From: Clostridia bacterium
Lineage (GTDB): Bacteria; Bacillota_A; Clostridia; Christensenellales; Aristaeellaceae
DNA: 32,548 bases
Reading direction: 5' to 3'
Assembly: GCA_017397695.1 (NCBI GenBank)
Contig: JAFQIF010000116.1
Location: 1-32,548, forward strand
Part shown: positions 1 to 27,990 of the stretch, one piece after another
Numbering within the stretch: the stretch's first letter is position 1
Layout of the letters: each line of letters starts with the position of its first letter
Notes under the pieces: generated by a model
What the model was told of the DNA's origin: nothing
The model's input: the letters and a program-made list of their open reading frames with translations, nothing else
Databases searched by the model: none
Translations under genes and position numbers: made by a program

Positions 1-33
1 CAGACTCCCTATTACGCTTCGCGGCGGCTTTAA
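1..33 (-). repeat. hairpin repeat copy A, cut by window edge
   Basis: Read on the minus strand this begins TTAAAGCCGCCGCGAAGCG and continues toward AGGGAGTCTG. It matches the 5' part of the other copies, most closely the ones at 6776-6865 and 27729-27812. The rest lies outside the window. It faces copy B (102-184) across a hairpin, so A and B form an inverted pair. Confidence 0.6.
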
Positions 34-101: not shown

Positions 102-184
102 GCTTCAAACCGCCGCGAAGCGAAGAAGGGTCAAGGGATGAAATCCCTCAGGCAGGGATTGGGACGGCAGTCCCAACGTTCCCC
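102..184 (+). repeat. hairpin repeat copy B
   Basis: The copy opens with GCTTCAAACCGCCGCGAAGCG. It has a first hairpin with arms AGGGAT (134-139) and ATCCCT (143-148), loop GAA, and a second with arms TTGGGAC (159-165) and GTCCCAA (170-176), loop GGCA. It ends at the base next to the pepT stop codon, so it would be transcribed in antisense as the pepT 3' untranslated region. Confidence 0.75.
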
Positions 185-2493: not shown

Positions 2494-5805
<3,312 letters not shown>

Positions 5806-5973: not shown

Positions 5974-6774
5974 ATGAAGAAGATTGCAATGCTGGCGTTG
6001 GCCATGATGATGCTGTTCGTGTCTGTGATGGGCATGGCGGATACGCTGAAGGTCGGCATGGAGTGCAACTATGCGCCCTACAACTGGACCCAGAGCGCGC
6101 CGAGCGACGAGGCTGTCGCGATCGCCGCGGGCGGCTATGCCGACGGCTACGACGTACGCATTGCCAAGCGCATTGCCAGCGAGCTGGGCATGGAGCTTGA
6201 AATCGTGAAGACCGAGTGGGACGGCCTTGTTCCGAGCCTGATGAGCGGCAAGATCGACTGCATCATCGCCGGCATGAGCCCGACCGAGGAGCGCAAAGTG
6301 ACCATCGACTTCACCGAGCCGTATTACGAGAGCGAGCTGTGCGTGGTCGTGATGAACGACGGCGCGTATGCGAATGCTGCTTCCCTCGCCGATTTCTCCG
6401 GCGCGAAGATCACCGGCCAGCTCAACACCTTCCATTACACCGTCATCGATCAGATTGACAAGGTGAAGAAGATGCCGGCCATGGAGACCTTCCCGGCGAT
6501 GATCGTGGCGCTGACTGCCGGTGCCATCGACGGCTACATCTCCGAGCGCCCGGGCGCTGTCTCCGCCATGGCGTCCAATCCGTCCATCGGCTACGTCGCC
6601 TTTGAAGAGGGCATGGGCTTTGAGGCCTCTCCGGAAGACGTTGCCATCGCCGTTGGCGTTGTCAAGGGCAGCGAGCTGACCGAGAAGATCAACGCGATCC
6701 TTGCGAACATCAGCCGCGAAGAGCGCAGCGCGCTCATGGACGCCGCTGTTGCCGCGCAGCCGCTGAGCGAGTAA
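5974..6774 (+). CDS. amino acid ABC transporter substrate-binding protein
   Basis: The 266-residue secreted protein belongs to family 3 of periplasmic-type binding proteins (polar amino acids). After a signal peptide (about 1-22) come the family hallmarks: LKVGMECNYAPYNW, GYDVRIAKRIASELGMELE, WDGLVPSLMSGKIDCIIAGMSPTEER and the DFTEPYYESELCVVV stretch. The ligand could be an amino acid or opine; the exact one is not readable. The signal peptide has no lipobox cysteine, so how the protein stays at the surface of a Gram-positive-type cell is unclear. The start ATG follows AAGGAGG by 8 bases. It leads the operon with a permease and an ATPase, and it uses the codons of a well-expressed gene. Confidence 0.93.
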   Translation: MKKIAMLALAMMMLFVSVMGMADTLKVGMECNYAPYNWTQSAPSDEAVAIAAGGYADGYDVRIAKRIASELGMELEIVKTEWDGLVPSLMSGKIDCIIAGMSPTEERKVTIDFTEPYYESELCVVVMNDGAYANAASLADFSGAKITGQLNTFHYTVIDQIDKVKKMPAMETFPAMIVALTAGAIDGYISERPGAVSAMASNPSIGYVAFEEGMGFEASPEDVAIAVGVVKGSELTEKINAILANISREERSALMDAAVAAQPLSE

Positions 6775-6775
6775 C

Positions 6776-6865
6776 GGGGGTTACGTTAGGGCTGCCGCCC
6801 TAAGACCCGCCTGAGGGATTTCATCCCTCAGACTCCCTTCTTCTCTGCGCTGCGCGCAGAGGAGG
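6776..6865 (-). repeat. hairpin repeat copy C
   Basis: Read on the minus strand, the first hairpin has arms CTGAGGGAT and ATCCCTCAG (6811-6831). The second has arms TTAGGGC and GCCCTAA (6786-6803) with loop GGCA. The usual GCCGCGAAGCG opening is replaced by another hairpin, CTCTGCGC (6843-6850) with GCGCAGAG (6854-6861). It starts two bases after the stop codon of the binding protein. Confidence 0.75.
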
Positions 6866-6944: not shown

Positions 6945-7023
6945 TAAGCGCGAAGCGAATATGGGGTCAAGGGGCGAAGCTCCTTGGTGGGTTTCAGGGC
7001 GGCAGCCCTGACGTCCTCCCCCG
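6945..7023 (+). repeat. hairpin repeat copy D
   Basis: After GCGCGAAGCGAATATGGGG come hairpin 1, CAAGGGGC (6968-6975) with GCTCCTTG (6979-6986), loop GAA, and hairpin 2, TCAGGGC (6994-7000) with GCCCTGA (7005-7011), loop GGCA. It faces copy C as an inverted pair and ends five bases before the ribosome site of the permease gene. Confidence 0.75.
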
Positions 7024-7041: not shown

Positions 7042-7848
7042 ATGCCATCTACGTTCTTTGGCTGGGTGGGCTTTCTGCTCAAGCAGTATGGCGGACTGTT
7101 CCTTTCCGGCACGGCGACCACGCTGCTCATTGCGCTCACCGGCACTTTTTTCGGCTTCATCATCGGCTTGCTGGTTGCCATCGTGCGTACGATTGAAATT
7201 CCGCGCGGTATGGGCCCGGTGAAGCGTGCCATCCGCAAGCTGGCGCATATCCTGATCGGCATCTATATCCAGGTTTTCCGCGGCACGCCGATGATCGTGC
7301 AGGCGATGGTCATCTACTATGGCTCGATGCAGTATCTGGGCATCGACATGGAGCGCACGGCAGCAGCGATCCTGATCATCTCGATCAACACCGGCGCATA
7401 CATGGCGGAGATCATCCGAGGCGGCATCATCTCCGTGGACAAGGGCCAGTTTGAGGCGGCGCACGCCATTGGCATGACCCACTGGCAGACGATGACGACC
7501 GTCGTGCTGCCGCAGGCGATCCGCAATATCCTGCCTTCCGTGGGCAACGAGCTGATCGTCAACATCAAGGACTCCAGCGTGCTCAACGTCATCTCCGTCA
7601 GCGAGCTGTTCTTCCAGGCGAAGAGCGCTGCGGGCACGTATTACAAGTACTTTGAGGTCTTCTTCATCATCGCGTGCATCTATCTGGTGCTCACCGTGAC
7701 CGTCAGCCGCGTGCTGCGCTGGATTGAGAAGAAGATGGACGGCCCGGATAACTACGTGATCTGCGGTTCCCAGAGCGACAGCCGCTCGGAGATCGTGGTC
7801 AGCAAGGAGCAGGAAGCGGAGGTGGACAGACAGTGGCAGAGCAAGTGA
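7042..7848 (+). CDS. amino acid ABC transporter permease
   Basis: This 268-residue integral membrane protein of the HisM/GlnP class should form the channel of the importer. The first segment ([30 protein letters not shown]) begins with the LxGxxxTLxI pattern of this class, and FRGTPMIVQ follows. The ATPase-docking EAA loop reads [12 protein letters not shown] and continues [18 protein letters not shown] short charged tail after the last helix is unusual in detail but harmless. The ATG at 7042 follows AAAGGAG by 7 bases. An in-frame TTG at 7024 lies before the ribosome site and is rejected. The end overlaps the ATPase gene by 16 bases, which points to coupled translation. Confidence 0.93.
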
Positions 7849-10924: not shown

Positions 10925-10976
10925 TCCGTATGAAACGGACGTTCCGCTGCAGGCGAAGTCGCGCTTGGCATGAGCG
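10925..10976 (+). promoter_or_regulatory. structured 5' leader of rplS
   Basis: The leader holds two small hairpins: TCCGT (10925-10929) with ACGGA (10935-10939), and CGCT (10962-10965) with AGCG (10973-10976). Firmicutes rplS genes often carry an L19 leader that gives feedback control by the protein. Whether this one belongs to that family cannot be judged by eye. Confidence 0.35.
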
Positions 10977-11001
10977 TCTATGATGAAAGGAGAAATCGAC
11001 A

Positions 11002-11343
11002 ATGAGCGAGATCATCCGTGCGATCGAAAGCGAGCAGCTCAAGAAGGATCTTCCCAAGTTCAACGTGGGCGATACCCTGCGTGTTATGGTGAAGGTTGTT
11101 GAGGGCGAGCGCGAGCGTCTCCAGGCGTTCGAGGGCATCTGCATCGCTAAGCGCAATGGCAGCATCCGTGAGACCTTCACCCTGCGCCGTGTTTCCTACG
11201 GCATCGGCGTGGAGCGTACCTTCCCGCTGCACTCCCCGCGTCTTGACAAGATTACGGTGCTCCGCCGCGGCAAGGTCCGTCGTGCGAAGCTGTACTATCT
11301 GCGTAATCTGTCCGGCAAAGCCGCCAAGATTAAGGAGAAGTAA
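11002..11343 (+). CDS. rplS: 50S ribosomal protein L19
   Basis: The 113-residue protein sits at the interface of the 50S and 30S subunits. The sequence is clearly L19: [60 protein letters not shown] and [14 protein letters not shown], at the usual length. AAAGGAGA precedes the ATG. It uses CGT and GTT codons more than most genes here, as expected for a highly expressed gene. It has its own promoter and terminator, so it is a one-gene unit. Confidence 0.99.
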
Positions 11344-13115: not shown

Positions 13116-13478
13116 ATGAGCGAATCTTCCCATGTGCGGGGCGCGCTGGGCGAAGTGCGCGCGGAGCAATACCTTGCGCAGAAGGGCTATGCGATCCTTG
13201 CGCGCAATTATGTTTCGCCCGGGTCGGAGATCGACCTGATTGCAGAGAATAAAGGCATGATCGTCTTCATCGAGGTGAAGGCGCGCTCGGGCAGGTTTTC
13301 CCCCGGGCGCGAGGCGGTCACGCCCGCCAAGCAAAAGCGCATCTGTAAGGGTGCCATGTACTATTTGATGCAAAACGGCCTGATGAATCGGCAGGCGCGG
13401 TTTGATGTGATCGAGATTCAGGGCGAACGCATGACGCATATCGAAAATGCGTTTGCCTATCAGGGGCCGGCATACTGA
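13116..13478 (+). CDS. yraN: YraN/UPF0102 family nuclease-fold protein
   Basis: This 120-residue protein has the endonuclease-like fold of UPF0102. The family pattern is clear: GALGEVRAEQYLAQKGYAILARNY, then GSEIDLIAENKGMIVFIEVKAR, with the acid-acid-lysine layout of the PD-(D/E)XK fold (Asp in EIDLI, Glu and Lys in IEVKAR). Its role is poorly known; relatives sit beside rnhB very often. Two ATG codons are possible. The one at 13116 has AAGG 7 bases upstream and is preferred. The one at 13110 overlaps the rnhB stop as ATGA but lies on top of that site. Confidence 0.93.
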   Translation: MSESSHVRGALGEVRAEQYLAQKGYAILARNYVSPGSEIDLIAENKGMIVFIEVKARSGRFSPGREAVTPAKQKRICKGAMYYLMQNGLMNRQARFDVIEIQGERMTHIENAFAYQGPAY

Positions 13479-13509
13479 CCGGCCGTCCCGAAATCGGAGG
13501 CATCACAGG

Positions 13510-16500
13510 ATGAAAAACAAAAAACAAATCGGGATTCTTGCAGCGCTGCTCGTGATCGTTTTGATCCTCAGCGCTACGCTGCTTTTTGGCGGCGGGAAGA
13601 ATCAGCCGGTGCAGCAGGGCAATCTGCTGAAGAACGGAGATTTTTCCGGCGTGACAAACGGCATGCCCGATGGCTGGAACACCGGCATGTGGGTCACCAG
13701 CGCCGGCGCGTCGTATCTGGAGGCGGTGACGCTTCAGGATGGCGCACAGGCCGTGCTCGTTGAAAACGTGGCGGCGAACGATGCGCGCTTTGAGCAGACG
13801 GTTGCCGTGCGCGAAAACGCGACCTATAAGCTGACCGCGCGTGTGATGGCCGAGGGCTGCGATCCGGATCAAATCGGCGCGAACGTGTCGTTTCTGGGCA
13901 TCTTCGGCACGAGCGACGACGTGCACGATACGAACGGTCAATGGGAAACCATCTCGCTCTACGCGCAGACGGGCAAGGGCCAGAAGGACGCGACGGTTTG
14001 CGTGCGCCTTGGCGGCTATGGATCGGAGGCGACGGGACGCGCATGGTTTGACGATGTGACGCTGGAACAGGTGGAAAGCGTGCCGGTGGGTGCGTTTGTG
14101 CTGGATCTGTCCACGCCCGAGCCGCAGAAGGAAACAGCGCCTAAAGGTGAAGGGGACAAGGCCTTGGTGATTCCGGGCCTGCTTGCCATAGCGGCTGCGT
14201 ATCTGCTGGCTGCGTTTGTGCTTGCGCGCACGGTGATCGCCGGCGGCAGCATGAGCGAAGGCAGGGCGCGGGTGAAGCTTGGTGTGCTGCTCATGGGTGC
14301 ACTTGTCCTGCGTGTGGCGCTGGCCAGCGTGGTCAGGGGCTATGGCGTAGATATGGGCTGCTTCGGCGCGTGGGCAGGGAAGATGGCGCATGGCGGTCCG
14401 GCGAATTTCTATGAGGAAGGCTACTTCTGCGATTATCCGCCGGCGTATTTGCTGGTGCTGGGGCTGCTGGGCAGCATCGCAAAGCTTTTCGGTATTTCCT
14501 TTGGCACGATGGGCGGCGAACTGCTGCTCAAGGCCGTGCCGATTTTCTGCGATATCCTGCTGGCGCTGGCAGTATACTGGGTGGCGGAGCGTGCAGCGGG
14601 CAGAAAGAGTGCGCTGGGGCTTTGTGCGCTCGTAGCGCTGAATCCGGCGTTTGTGATCGCAGGCTCATGCTGGGGCCAGATCGATGCGGTGCTCTGCGTG
14701 CTGCTGGTGCTCGTGCTGATCCTTGCCCGCGATGGCCGGTGGCAGTATGCCCTTGCGGCGTTTGCGCTGGCCGTGCTGGCCAAGCCGCAGGCAGGCCTGC
14801 TGGCACCGCTGGGCGTTGCCGCGCTTGCGCGCGACGTGATCCGGCGCAAAGAGGCGCGAAAGCCTGCCGTGCTTGGCTTGCTGCTGGGCCTCGGTGTCAC
14901 GGCGGCTGTCGTGCTGCCATTCTCGCCGAATCAGGATTCGGCCTTCTGGATCGTGGATAAGTACATGGAGACGCTCTCCAGCTACGCCTATGCGACGCTG
15001 TCCACCGGCAACCTGATGTTCCTGCTTGGCGGCAATTGGGTACCCAATGATCAGATTCTCTTTGGCGGCGTAACGTATGGGCTGTTGGGCACGGTGCTGA
15101 TGGTGCTCTCGTTTGCCTTCGGTGTGTTCGTTTATCTGCGCGGCAGGGAGAGAACACGCCTGATGCTTGCCAGCGCCGCAACGATGCAGCTGATCTTTGC
15201 GCTGGGCAGCAAGATGCATGAACGCTATGTGCTGCCTGCGCTGGTGCTGCTGCTGCTTGCGTATCTGGAAACAGGCGATGTGCGCCTGCTGGCGTCTTCC
15301 ATCCTGGCCGGCGCGGCTTCGGCGGTGAATATCGGCGTGGTGCTCGCTTTTGAGCATCTGATTGCGCCCAATCTTTGGCTGGGTCATCTGGTTGGCGCGG
15401 CGCAGCTGATCGCCGCAGGCCTGACCGTGTGGGCGGCTGTGAGCCTGTCGCTGGGCCGTGGGCCGATGCGCCTGAGGCCCCGCACAGAAAAGGCGGCGCA
15501 GGAACGCGGCGAAAGCAGCATGGCCGGCGCGGCGGATGCGCGCATGCGCGAAGAACTGCTGCACGCAAAGGACTACAAGCTGCATATGGGCAAGGCCGAC
15601 TGGGCAATCATGCTGGCGCTGACGCTCATCTACGGCGTGATCGGATTCTGGTGCCTGGGTACGACGAAAGCGCCGCAGGGCGGCTATGCCTCTACGGCGG
15701 CAGGCGAGACGGTGACCATCGATCTGGGCGAAAGCCGCAGCAATTTCCATATCTATTACTATGGCGGCGTGTCGAGCACGCAGTTCACCGTGGCGACGAG
15801 CGAAGACGGCGTCAGCTTCACGGAGGAAACGGGCGCATATTTCGACGTGGGCGAGTGCTATAAGTGGCTGGCGATGCGCAGCCCGGTGTACGATGCGGAT
15901 GGCACGGTCGCCTCGGTAAACGGCGGCATGCTGCCCTTCTCCGGTCGCTATATCCGCGTCACGTTTGACGGCGCGGCAGGCTCCCTGTGGGAGATGGCGG
16001 CGGTGGATGAAAACGGCGTGTTGCTCCCGGCGGTTTCTGCGGTGAATGCGGGCGGCGTGGAAGGCCGCATGAGCGATCCGATGAGCGTGATCGACGAGCA
16101 GGACACCGTGCCGGATAAGCCCTCGTACATGAACAGCATGTACTTTGACGAGATCTATCACGGCCGCACGGGCTACGAGCATGCGCACGGCCTGAGCACC
16201 TACGAGACGACGCATCCGCCGCTGGGCAAGGTGTTCATGTCCTGGTGCATCAGGCTGATGGGCATGACACCTTTTGCCTGGCGGTTTGCGGGCGCGCTTT
16301 GCGGCGTGCTGATGGTGCCGGCGATGTATCTGCTGGCCAAAACGCTGCTGGGCAGCACGATCTGGTGCGCACTGTGCACGCTGCTGCTGAGCTTTGACTG
16401 CATGCACTTCACCCAGACACGCATCGCGACGATTGACTCGTTCCCGGTGCTGTTTATGATGCTGATGTTCCTGCTGATGGCGCGCTGGATGAAGATGAGC

Positions 16501-17436
16501 TTCTATCATCAGCGGCTGCGGGATACATTTGTGCCCTTGGCGCTGTCGGGCGTCTTCATGGGCCTGGCGATCGCCAGCAAGTGGATCGGCTGCTACGGCG
16601 CGGCGGGTCTGGCCGTGCTGTTCTTTGCGCGCTTCTATCAGCTCTGGCGTCAGAGCGTATATGCGAAAGCGCATCGGGATGAAGACCCTGCGTTTGCCCG
16701 CGCGGCGGCGCTGTTTAAGGACAGGGGAACGAAGACGATTCTTGCGTGCTTTGTGTTCTTTGTATTCGTGCCGCTGGCGATCTACGTGGCCAGCTATGTG
16801 CCGTATCTTGCGGCCTACGGCGGCTTTAAGTGGGACATGGCTACGCTGCGCAAGCTCTGGGATGCGCAGGTGCTGATGCTGGATTACCACGCGAACCTTG
16901 TTGCGGAGCATTACTTTGCCTCGCCTTGGTACGAATGGCCACTGATCGTCAAGCCGATGTGGTATTACGCGGCGGACTTCAAAGCGCCGGGTATGGCGTC
17001 GTCTATTCTGGCGTTCGGCAATCCAGCCGTGTGGTGGGCGGGCCTTGCCGGCATCCTGTTTGTGCTTGTTTACAGCGTGTACCGCAATGCGCTGCCGGCG
17101 CTGCGCATCACGGCAGGCCGCGAGGATGCGGACGACCGCGTGATGCCCATTATCTGCGTGGCGTTCCTGTCGGGCTATCTGCCGTGGGTACTGGTGTCCC
17201 GCCTTACGTTCATCTATCACTACTTTGCATCCGTGCCGTGGATCATCATCGCGACGGTGCTGGGGCTTAAGTATCTGGCGAGGGAGCATAAGAAGCTTTC
17301 GTATGCGATTGCGGCGCTGCTGGGCGTTGCAGCTGTGGCGCTGTTTATCGCATTCTATCCGCTGGCCTCGGGTGTCGAGGTGCCGCGCGCTTGGTGCGAT
17401 GCGGTGGCCTGGTTCGATGGGTGGATGTGGTATTAA
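13510..17436 (+). CDS. double GT-C glycosyltransferase with carbohydrate-binding modules (Gpi18-like plus PMT-like)
   Basis: This is a 1308-residue multi-pass membrane protein. Parts in order: one membrane segment (about 7-27); an extracytoplasmic CBM4/9-like beta-sandwich (about 38-190, NLLKNGDFSG to AWFDDVTLEQV); a polytopic GT-C domain like Gpi18/GT87 mannosyltransferases (about 220-665, with GVDMGCFGAWA, CDYPPAYL, WGQIDAV, KPQ and KMHERYVLP); a further membrane segment (about 698-717); an F5/8 C-like module (about 734-842); and a GT39 (protein O-mannosyltransferase) domain with FDEIYHGRTGYEH (about 879-891), THPPLGK (about 901-907) and RIATIDSFPVLF. Both halves should use polyprenyl-phosphate sugars outside the membrane. 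The target could be proteins or a cell-wall glycan. GGAGG lies 9 bases before the ATG. Confidence 0.85.
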   Translation: MKNKKQIGILAALLVIVLILSATLLFGGGKNQPVQQGNLLKNGDFSGVTNGMPDGWNTGMWVTSAGASYLEAVTLQDGAQAVLVENVAANDARFEQTVAVRENATYKLTARVMAEGCDPDQIGANVSFLGIFGTSDDVHDTNGQWETISLYAQTGKGQKDATVCVRLGGYGSEATGRAWFDDVTLEQVESVPVGAFVLDLSTPEPQKETAPKGEGDKALVIPGLLAIAAAYLLAAFVLARTVIAGGSMSEGRARVKLGVLLMGALVLRVALASVVRGYGVDMGCFGAWAGKMAHGGPANFYEEGYFCDYPPAYLLVLGLLGSIAKLFGISFGTMGGELLLKAVPIFCDILLALAVYWVAERAAGRKSALGLCALVALNPAFVIAGSCWGQIDAVLCVLLVLVLILARDGRWQYALAAFALAVLAKPQAGLLAPLGVAALARDVIRRKEARKPAVLGLLLGLGVTAAVVLPFSPNQDSAFWIVDKYMETLSSYAYATLSTGNLMFLLGGNWVPNDQILFGGVTYGLLGTVLMVLSFAFGVFVYLRGRERTRLMLASAATMQLIFALGSKMHERYVLPALVLLLLAYLETGDVRLLASSILAGAASAVNIGVVLAFEHLIAPNLWLGHLVGAAQLIAAGLTVWAAVSLSLGRGPMRLRPRTEKAAQERGESSMAGAADARMREELLHAKDYKLHMGKADWAIMLALTLIYGVIGFWCLGTTKAPQGGYASTAAGETVTIDLGESRSNFHIYYYGGVSSTQFTVATSEDGVSFTEETGAYFDVGECYKWLAMRSPVYDADGTVASVNGGMLPFSGRYIRVTFDGAAGSLWEMAAVDENGVLLPAVSAVNAGGVEGRMSDPMSVIDEQDTVPDKPSYMNSMYFDEIYHGRTGYEHAHGLSTYETTHPPLGKVFMSWCIRLMGMTPFAWRFAGALCGVLMVPAMYLLAKTLLGSTIWCALCTLLLSFDCMHFTQTRIATIDSFPVLFMMLMFLLMARWMKMSFYHQRLRDTFVPLALSGVFMGLAIASKWIGCYGAAGLAVLFFARFYQLWRQSVYAKAHRDEDPAFARAAALFKDRGTKTILACFVFFVFVPLAIYVASYVPYLAAYGGFKWDMATLRKLWDAQVLMLDYHANLVAEHYFASPWYEWPLIVKPMWYYAADFKAPGMASSILAFGNPAVWWAGLAGILFVLVYSVYRNALPALRITAGREDADDRVMPIICVAFLSGYLPWVLVSRLTFIYHYFASVPWIIIATVLGLKYLAREHKKLSYAIAALLGVAAVALFIAFYPLASGVEVPRAWCDAVAWFDGWMWY

Positions 17437-17447
17437 TCCTTATTTCT

Positions 17448-17595
17448 GCCGCGAAGCGAAGAAGGGGTCTGGGGACGACGTCCCCAGGCAGGGGATTGGG
17501 GATGAAATCCCCAAACGTACCCCATGCGCGAAGCGCCGCAAGCAAGAATCAGAGAGGAGCCAAAGGCGACAATTCTGATTCTGAACTGCTTGCTT
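17448..17595 (+). repeat. hairpin repeat copy E, composite form (modules A and B)
   Basis: Module A (17448-17522) has hairpin 1, CTGGGGAC (17469-17476) with GTCCCCAG (17480-17487), and hairpin 2, TTGGGGAT (17496-17503) with ATCCCCAA (17507-17514). Module B begins CATGCGCGAAGCGCC, itself a GCGC/GCGC hairpin (17526-17536). It then forms a long interrupted stem: AAGCAAG (17540-17546) with CTTGCTT (17589-17595), and AATCAGA (17547-17553) with TCTGATT (17574-17580). The same two modules recur in the same order at 27821-27969 on the other strand. Confidence 0.8.
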
Positions 17596-17610
17596 AAAAG
17601 CATAAGAAAG

Positions 17611-17656
17611 CCGGAGACATTCGGGCAAAAGCCTTGGTGTCTCCGGTCATTTTTTA
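17611..17656. terminator. bidirectional terminator between the GT-C gene and the XRE gene
   Basis: CCGGAGACA (17611-17619) pairs with TGTCTCCGG (17638-17646) and is followed by TCATTTTTTAT on the plus strand. On the minus strand a T-rich CTTTCTTATG follows. The stem abuts the stop codon of the XRE gene, so it likely ends both converging transcripts. Confidence 0.85.
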
Positions 17657-26796: not shown

Positions 26797-26880
26797 GCTT
26801 GAAACAGGCGCGAAGCGTACATGGGGTCAAGGGGCGAAGTCCCTTGTCAGGGGTCTGAGGATGAAATCCCCAGAAAGGGT
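26797..26880 (+). repeat. hairpin repeat copy F
   Basis: The copy starts CTTGAAACAGGCGCGAAGCG. It has hairpin 1, CAAGGGGC with GTCCCTTG (26828-26846, one G-U pair), and hairpin 2, CTGAGGAT with ATCCCCAG (one A-C mismatch). Its 3' end (CAGAAAGGG) supplies the ribosome site for the CHAP gene, whose ATG is 7 bases further on. Confidence 0.75.
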
Positions 26881-26886
26881 TCCAAA

Positions 26887-27645
26887 ATGAAAAGACTGGT
26901 CATGGCGCTTCTCGTCAGTGCGCTGCTGCTTGGTGCAGGTGCGCTGGCGGATACTGCGCCGGTGAATATGAAAACGCCGCCTGAGGCGATTGCCACGCAG
27001 GCGGAAGGCGAACTGGAGACGTATGATCTCACGTTCCCGGAGGATATGCCGCTGGAGGCGCGTAATTTTGTGCTCTTTGCGCGCGCGCAGTTTGAAAAGC
27101 ATCCCTTTGAAAAGCTGCCCAAGGCGAACGAGTACACCAAGTGGTACTATCAGGATAAGCGCGAGATCGGCTGGTGTTCTGTGTTCCAGATTTACTGCGC
27201 GCAGCACAGCGGCGTGCAGCTGGTGAAGCATAAGCAGGATGTGACGGTTGAGCCGGGCGAGGTGATCTCCGCGATGGAGGGCCGCGTAGGCAACGTATAT
27301 TATGTGTTTGAGGAACATGGCCGCTGGCAGCAGGCGGACAAGATGGAAGCGATTCCCAAGCCCGGCTGCATCGTCATCTACGGCAAGCGCGGCTCCACGC
27401 CCTATACGCACGTGGGCATTGTGGAGAGCGTGAAAGAGTTGGGCGAGGGCATGTATGAGCTGACGACCATCGAAGGCAATGTGAACTCGACGATCAAGCG
27501 CATGAACTACCGCTACGATGCGACGCCGAAGAAGAAATACTACAACATGTCCGAGATTCCGGAAGATGAAATCACACGGGAGAACTGCCAGTATACCGTG
27601 CATAAGAAGGATTGGTATATTACTGGATTCGGCAATACATGGTAA
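26887..27645 (+). CDS. secreted CHAP-type cysteine peptidase/amidase-like protein
   Basis: The 252-residue protein has a signal peptide (about 1-21, ending ALAD), a short linker and a CHAP-like catalytic domain. The Cys97 motif reads EIGWCSVFQIYCAQHSG, the His175 motif PYTHVGIVE, and the third acid TTIEGNVN (Glu196, Asn198). Such enzymes usually cut peptidoglycan peptides or amides and help growth or release at the cell surface. Many CHAP proteins carry a separate wall-binding domain; none is seen. The ATG at 26887 is chosen: an earlier in-frame start at 26821 would translate the repeat. It is the last gene of the polysaccharide operon. Confidence 0.85.
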   Translation: MKRLVMALLVSALLLGAGALADTAPVNMKTPPEAIATQAEGELETYDLTFPEDMPLEARNFVLFARAQFEKHPFEKLPKANEYTKWYYQDKREIGWCSVFQIYCAQHSGVQLVKHKQDVTVEPGEVISAMEGRVGNVYYVFEEHGRWQQADKMEAIPKPGCIVIYGKRGSTPYTHVGIVESVKELGEGMYELTTIEGNVNSTIKRMNYRYDATPKKKYYNMSEIPEDEITRENCQYTVHKKDWYITGFGNTW

Positions 27646-27679: not shown

Positions 27680-27728
27680 GGCGTATATGCGGATAGGATG
27701 CGGTGGGAATAGAATGTTTACTAAGGCA

Positions 27729-27812
27729 GCTTAAAGCCGCCGCAAAGCGAAGAAGGGTCAAGGGATGAAATCCCTTGTCAGGGGTTTGGGGATGAAATCC
27801 CCAACGTAACCC
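27729..27812 (+). repeat. hairpin repeat copy G
   Basis: It starts GCTTAAAGCCGCCGCAAAGCG. It has hairpin 1, CAAGGGAT with ATCCCTTG, and hairpin 2, TTGGGGAT with ATCCCCAA, both with loop GAA. It lies downstream of the CHAP gene and faces copy H in inverted orientation, so the pair could form one large cruciform. Confidence 0.8.
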
Positions 27813-27820
27813 AATCGAAG

Positions 27821-27871
27821 AAAAAAGCAAGAATCGGAGCGTCGCCTTCGGCTCCTGTTTGATTCTTGCTT
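27821..27871 (-). terminator. module B of copy H as terminator for the GH20 gene
   Basis: On the minus strand AAGCAAGAATC and GATTCTTGCTT (27861-27871 and 27825-27835) form an 11-bp stem with an inner GGAGC/GCTCC hairpin. A run of six T bases follows at once. This is a complete intrinsic terminator for the leftward GH20 transcript. Confidence 0.8.
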
Positions 27872-27969
27872 ATCTGGCGCTTCGCGCATGGAAACGTTGG
27901 GCTGCCGCCCAAACCCGCCTGGGGACATTGTCCCCAGACCCCTTCTTCGCTTCGCGGCGGTTTCAAGCT
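27821..27969 (-). repeat. hairpin repeat copy H, composite form (modules A and B)
   Basis: Read on the minus strand from 27969: GCTTGAAACCGCCGCGAAGCG, hairpin 1 CTGGGGAC with GTCCCCAG (loop AAT), hairpin 2 TTGGGC with GCCCAA (loop GGCA), then module B with CATGCGCGAAGCGCC and the stem AAGCAAGAATC/GATTCTTGCTT. The order of parts is the same as in copy E at 17448-17595. It fills the 3' untranslated region of the GH20 gene. Confidence 0.8.
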
Positions 27970-27990
27970 GCTTAGTGAACTAAATATCCT

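Follow-up and report, generated by a model that had tools for sequence, protein, structure and literature searches.

A dispersed two-hairpin repeat in Clostridia genomes is very probably the core of a MITE-type mobile element family

The two-hairpin repeat that is dispersed over a 32,548-nt contig of a Clostridia bacterium (the whole stretch of DNA that was analyzed, hereafter the window) is very probably a core that is conserved across a family of non-autonomous, MITE-type mobile elements. A complete element of this family would span ca. 180–365 bp and consist, from one end to the other, of a terminal inverted repeat, a mini-hairpin, hairpin 1, hairpin 2, a second mini-hairpin, a third hairpin, and the other terminal inverted repeat. 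Judging from their shared core and from one bracketed site, the copies in the window would be family members, and we read them as old copies of a related lineage because the second mini-hairpin and the third hairpin of the copy at 17437–17602 match the plan of the complete elements.

Copies of the repeat in the window

A first-pass annotation had described eight copies of the repeat lying between genes. Our covariance-model search indeed recovered seven full copies of the two-hairpin core with scores of 61.7–78.7 bits under a model that was trained on these same seven copies, i.e., those at 115–185, 6950–7020, 17451–17522, 26810–26881, and 27742–27812 on the plus strand and at 6777–6850 and 27887–27955 on the minus strand. 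The eighth copy is truncated by the window edge and comprises only the opening (1–33, minus strand, recognized from the sequence). Overlap with called genes does not exceed 20 nt for any of the seven full copies, which bears out their placement between genes. The model was built from 19 copies that include, besides these seven, eight from the loci L001, L008, L009, L011, and L012 and four from the viral contig L013.

The copy that had been placed at 17448–17595 is real, though its extent has to be revised to 17437–17602 (plus strand, 166 bp). The TAA to its left (17434–17436, plus strand) is the stop codon of the upstream ORF 13447–17436, by eye a PMT-like membrane protein, and at the same time the left copy of an inferred 3-bp target duplication, the right copy of which is the TAA at 17603–17605 (plus strand). 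Between them, and all on the plus strand, lie a first mini-hairpin, CGC-GAA-GCG (17450–17458), which corresponds to the “GCGAAGCG opening” and is kept in the core alignment, then hairpin 1, CTGGGGAC-GAC-GTCCCCAG (17469–17487), hairpin 2, TTGGGGAT-GAA-ATCCCCAA (17496–17514), a second mini-hairpin, GCGC-GAA-GCGC (17526–17536), and a third hairpin, AGAATCAGA...TCTGATTCT (17545–17582), which is related to 27841–27871. A similar second mini-hairpin is found at the same place in the complete elements of the related genomes G044 and G008 that are described below, while ends like those of these elements are absent from the window. A terminator-like hairpin with a T-run follows 3′ of the right TAA at about 17610–17656 (by eye), and a copy that lies between a stop codon and a terminator in this way should be transcribed within the 3′ end of the mRNA.

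At the orthologous site in L011, the element is bracketed by TAA on both sides just as in the window, and L012 reads TGA-element-TGA (by eye). L009 has a single TAA that is followed by a similar terminator, with the element absent, and L008 carries an element at the same stop, where a matching duplication was not seen. The eight remaining relatives showed no core opening up to 330 nt from this stop. The orthologous gene was also recognized in G044 (40 of 66 C-terminal positions alike, stop sign counted), and its stop there carries an element of G044's own type. Because the flanks have diverged, those of L009 included, this site supports a target duplication and does not prove it alone.

The remaining copies are found in various positions relative to genes. 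The short copy at 108–184 (plus strand) is flanked by TCA at 105–107 and 185–187, the latter being the stop of the minus-strand ORF 185–1405 that abuts the copy; this bracketing is one case, and other short copies are without consistent duplications by eye. One copy (6776–6850, minus strand) adjoins the 3′ end of the ORF 5974–6774, and another (26797–26881, plus strand) lies in the 5′ leader of an ORF at about 26888–27645. The copies at 27742–27812 and 27887–27955 form a tail-to-tail pair (27726–27971) that has one third hairpin in common and whose outer ends are inverted repeats. The copy at 6950–7020 (plus strand) is located upstream of an ABC-permease-like gene (named by eye), a site where L001, L009, and L011 also carry copies with differing hairpin stems, a pattern compatible both with selection and with their replacement by other copies.

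Elsewhere in the window, a match to the L19 ribosomal protein leader that stays below the gathering threshold (10938–10979; 27.2 vs. 36 bits) lies directly upstream of an ORF at 11002 that is rplS-like by eye. An alpha-glucosidase-like gene (4151–5805, by eye) is split into the overlapping ORFs 4151–4762 and 4723–5805 in different frames, which reflects either a frameshift or a sequencing error.

Covariation and exchange of hairpins

The first-pass annotation had stated that both arms of each stem change together, and the covariation in both hairpins is strong. Our 19-copy alignment contains 47 double-change cells compared to 14.3 after shuffling and no more than 13 after sliding, and an alignment of 119 distinct rows that was fitted to the structure contains 362 compared to 104 and no more than 46, respectively. 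These shuffle and slide controls exclude that the covariation is no better than expected from plain sequence similarity. Further pair types were not in excess over shuffles among the 19 copies (239 of 500 shuffles were as high), and RNAalifold predicted both hairpins from the 19-copy alignment without a supplied structure. The description of the loops as GAA-like or GGCA was too narrow in that hairpin 1 of window copies also has GAC (copy 17451) and AAT (copy 27887), while hairpin-2 loops of relatives further include GGTA, AGCC, and TGC.

The hairpins behave as modules. Two or three hairpin units make up the core, with their number varying between copies; e.g., L011:23624 is a three-hairpin match between codirectional genes. 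In L080, three copies of the repeat follow each other in tandem at 7382–7632, one every ca. 90 bp. Because copies transpose and take their hairpins from a limited repertoire, joint changes of both arms need not be independent compensatory mutations. The covariation could also have arisen only as a side effect when a few hairpin types spread and underwent gene conversion, without structural selection, which would be compatible with the MITE reading and which we consider distinctly possible without favoring it. The recurrence of identical hairpins across several genomes and in several combinations points in this direction, as does the window copy at 102–184, the partly mismatched hairpin 1 of which combines a left arm of one type with a right arm of another. 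Against this, and despite the loss of recognizable ends from the window copies, ca. 93% of cells remain paired over the 119 distinct rows of the structure-fitted alignment. For a MITE-type element, the joint arm changes may come from swaps to other hairpin types, from selection for the fold, or from both.

As DNA, the motif GCGAAGC forms a mini-hairpin of very high stability (PMC4686876), and this stability may matter in single-stranded DNA. That the four G-runs of the repeat form a G-quadruplex is an idea only.

Complete elements, hosts, and placement in related genomes

To find relatives of the window, the large membrane protein encoded beside the copy at 17437–17602 was used as query. The resulting 12 genomes are Clostridia/Clostridiales MAGs, two of them Candidatus Ventricola, and all 12 contain the core. 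At least 150 copies each are present in G001, G008, G011, and G012, i.e., in four of the 12 relatives, which upholds the earlier claim of such a repeat at high copy number in Clostridia and excludes that the genome group holds no further copies. G002 has at least 138, G009 at least 82, G004 at least 48, and G003 at least 23 copies, while 10 or fewer were found among the matches scored in each of the remaining four. Under stricter filters and with few candidates scored per genome, 49 of 120 genomes of the same family matched at E 1e-4 (G011 and G012 included) and 3 of 291 genomes of a class-wide sample matched at E 1e-6, i.e., G011 and two others with one weak match each. The hosts of these elements are a group of uncultured gut bacteria. 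Four core copies also lie on the 7694-bp IMG/VR contig L013, the genes of which match PHROGs portal, large terminase, and small terminase families, so the element is found in prophage or phage-like DNA as well.

Complete elements were recognized in two genomes. G008 contains 23 distinct elements with terminal inverted repeats, of which 21 are 195 bp and two are 192 bp long, and 14 of the 23 sequences are identical. All 23 have TNA at both flanks, and in 22 of them the 3-bp triplet is identical on both sides. This set was compiled from 20 regions chosen by end spacing plus L083, L084, and L177 (45 rows representing 23 distinct elements, 22 of them read in both orientations); a stricter filter leaves 22 elements with 21 identical triplets, dropping L189 with its TAA on both sides. 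The G008 family has the appearance of a non-autonomous transposon with recent activity. In G044, the core lies inside 33 distinct elements of 181–363 bp that are older than the G008 family and have inverted ends related to those of G008. TNA is found at the left flank of 29 and at the right flank of 20 of these, and identical triplets flank 14 of the 33 compared to a shuffled mean of 5.9 (1 of 10,000 shuffles reaches 14). Like MITEs, the elements of both genomes are short, have no room for a transposase, carry terminal inverted repeats, and are flanked, in the proportions given above, by a target site duplication. When the 195-mer is folded, its ends pair with each other and the hairpins lie between them (z −6.1 as DNA and −8.2 as RNA); the RNA fold also clearly beats shuffles, so the fold does not decide between selection at the DNA or the RNA level.

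Placement was analyzed with our own gene caller in 42 fetched loci and the window, with 90 matches of at least 47.6 bits. None of these reaches more than 20 nt into a called gene, and copies often occur in head-to-head pairs. The 74 matches with genes on both sides lie between codirectional (51) or convergent (23) and never between divergent genes, whereas 69 of the 373 gaps between genes that measure 75 nt or more in this sample are divergent (Fisher p = 2e-6 for 73 of the 74 matches, in loci selected for holding copies and with neighboring copies not independent). Among the 33 elements of G044, 18 directly adjoin a called stop codon with no base in between (17 in sense, one in antisense orientation) compared to 9.3% of the available, i.e., non-coding plus stop, TNA sites (p = 7e-11), while stop codons are not significantly favored in G008 (3 of 22, p = 0.11); these p values are rough because the background loci were fetched around the elements and partly overlap. 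Since the young G008 family does not show the stop preference, this preference may reflect survival rather than landing choice. No element of either set was classed inside a called gene, and most TNA sites are coding. We dropped the absence of TAG stops as evidence, with TAG making up only 16 of 706 stops in called genes.

These placements also bear on whether the repeat could be a cis-acting RNA element under selection that is not primarily mobile, e.g., a stabilizer in 3′ or 5′ UTRs, an attenuator, or a protein site. Such an element would go well with the strong covariation, with the differing stems of the copies that the window and three relatives have at one and the same site ahead of the permease-like gene, and with the 17 sense compared to one antisense orientations at G044 stops. 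However, the 14 identical 195-bp copies of G008 with duplications at different sites demonstrate mobility, and no Rfam model matched the repeat in the window, the complete copies in L157, L158, and L179, or the element in L008 and L029. We therefore hold a primarily cis-acting RNA element to be highly unlikely.

A second structured and conserved cassette was observed at 28 flank-distinct places, e.g., in L063, L008, L001, L011, L029, and L154, where it lies in or beside hairpins of the repeat (by eye). It is 90–96 bp long in 26 of the 28, reads GACCGGAGCC...CGTCGGGAATCGCAAGGAGCG...GACTATGCGAGTTCCCCG with its own variable stem, and looks like another hairpin-associated mobile unit. It has no match in the window and no Rfam match in four loci holding the cassette. 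L029 further contains a THF riboswitch match at 1863–1969 that scores just above the gathering threshold (36.9 vs. 36 bits).

Mechanism, candidate transposases, and known systems

As a mechanism for the MITE reading, we propose that a cut-and-paste DDE transposase, probably of the IS5/IS1031 type, moves the element in trans. The element would insert at TNA with duplication of three bases, as seen in the relatives, and intragenic copies would be lost while intergenic ones are kept. TAA and TGA stop codons may thereby be harmless landing sites because the duplication preserves the stop and the gene stays whole, and a duplicated stop codon offers a simple account of how short repeats accumulate beside stops without gene damage. 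Old copies such as those of the window would have lost their recognizable ends and retained the hairpins. In mRNA 3′ regions or 5′ leaders, these hairpins may serve in stabilization or processing, which is the least certain step; a role at mRNA ends is plausible, and the conserved hairpins present a testable case of mobile DNA adopted as mRNA end structure. More speculatively, and with considerable doubt, the repeat might be part of a two-tier mobile hairpin system in which stop-codon settlers with interchangeable stems rewrite many mRNA ends and are themselves invaded, by whichever mechanism, by the second, ca. 95-bp structured cassette.

The TNA target with 3-bp duplication in G008 and G044 agrees with the 3-bp TNA repeats that are described for IS5-family members of the IS1031 group (PMC12016507). 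PF01609 was found in three of six genomes at five loci, none of which was seen to be bounded by element ends in these draft MAGs with their gaps; the loci had other ends or none that were found, though two of the three G008 loci have element ends close to the gene. At L177, an element occupies the place expected for the right end of the IS, and at L178 a single element end was seen close to the IS. The IS5-like transposase loci of G008 were rejected as partner given their different ends (TAGAGTGTGTTTCTAAA). Searching with the element ends in G044, G008 (among the places listed), and G083, we recognized no autonomous partner among ORFs inspected by eye, nor a transposase by eye in the ORFs enclosed by three end pairs of G044 that are 1.3–2.9 kb apart. 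Two of 30 loci around such ends were without the core pattern, and neither had a recognized transposase. With its near-identical members, the G008 family lends itself well to a search for this enzyme.

The first-pass annotation had instead likened the repeat to REP/BIME families and proposed to look for a RAYT transposase in the genome. Transposition as single-stranded DNA by such a Y1 HUH enzyme seems very improbable to us. Y1_Tnp was detected in 12 of 49 repeat-positive compared to 32 of 71 repeat-negative genomes of the family (Fisher p = 0.03, overlap counted by hand), i.e., in the direction opposite to a RAYT link. None was found in the repeat-rich drafts G001, G008, and G012, which may be incomplete, and G011, also repeat-rich, has a weak match with an internal stop. 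Y1/RAYT transposases thus do not track the repeat in relatives or across the family. REPs are also not known to have the terminal inverted repeats and 3-bp target duplications that the complete elements display. What speaks for REPs is the high copy number of palindromes that are intergenic, often paired head-to-head, and never found between divergent genes, features that are described for REPs as well (PMC3733652). In addition, the third hairpin of many G044 elements (GTAGCCCGG...CCCGGG) resembles a GTAG-tagged REP, such tags being described in PMC2817692; e.g., that of L155, GTAGCCCGG-AGCGAAGCG-ATCCCGGG, is like the GTAG-tagged REPs of gammaproteobacteria. REPs carry a GTAG or CGTC tag next to a palindrome of 20–40 bp, and beside the core hairpins no such tag was noticed by eye among the copies viewed. 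The REP/BIME comparison thus holds for a dispersed, structure-conserved, high-copy repeat with palindromes, paired copies, and REP-like positions relative to genes. It fails for REP/BIME in the strict sense, from which the longer element differs by its inverted repeats, its TNA duplications, and the missing link to RAYT.

Pneumococcal BOX elements are modular with a variable number of hairpin units and are alike in this respect to the two or three units found here, in an unrelated host and likened by description only. IS5-family insertion sequences of the IS1031 group and MITEs derived from them share the 3-bp TNA target duplication and the terminal inverted repeats, while our element carries no transposase gene, no partner IS has been identified for it, and its ends (TACTATTCTCAAATAGAA) do not resemble the single IS1031-group end that PMC12016507 quotes. 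Bacterial MITEs such as Correia/NEMIS, ERIC, and RUP are likewise small and intergenic, with inverted repeats, duplications, and highly paired transcripts (PMC2229807), whereas the family described here is distinguished by its TNA target, the 3-bp duplication, a two-hairpin core with exchangeable stems, and the enrichment at stop codons (in G044), a place beside stops that is also reported for REPs (PMC3733652). We recognized no description of this element family in the open-licence literature, though the supplements of PMC8040213, which list candidate structured RNAs from human microbiomes by the thousands, may include it. Bacterial MITEs as such are already known, and what sets this family apart as a novel form is its landing at stop codons, its exchangeable hairpins, and the cassette nested in it.
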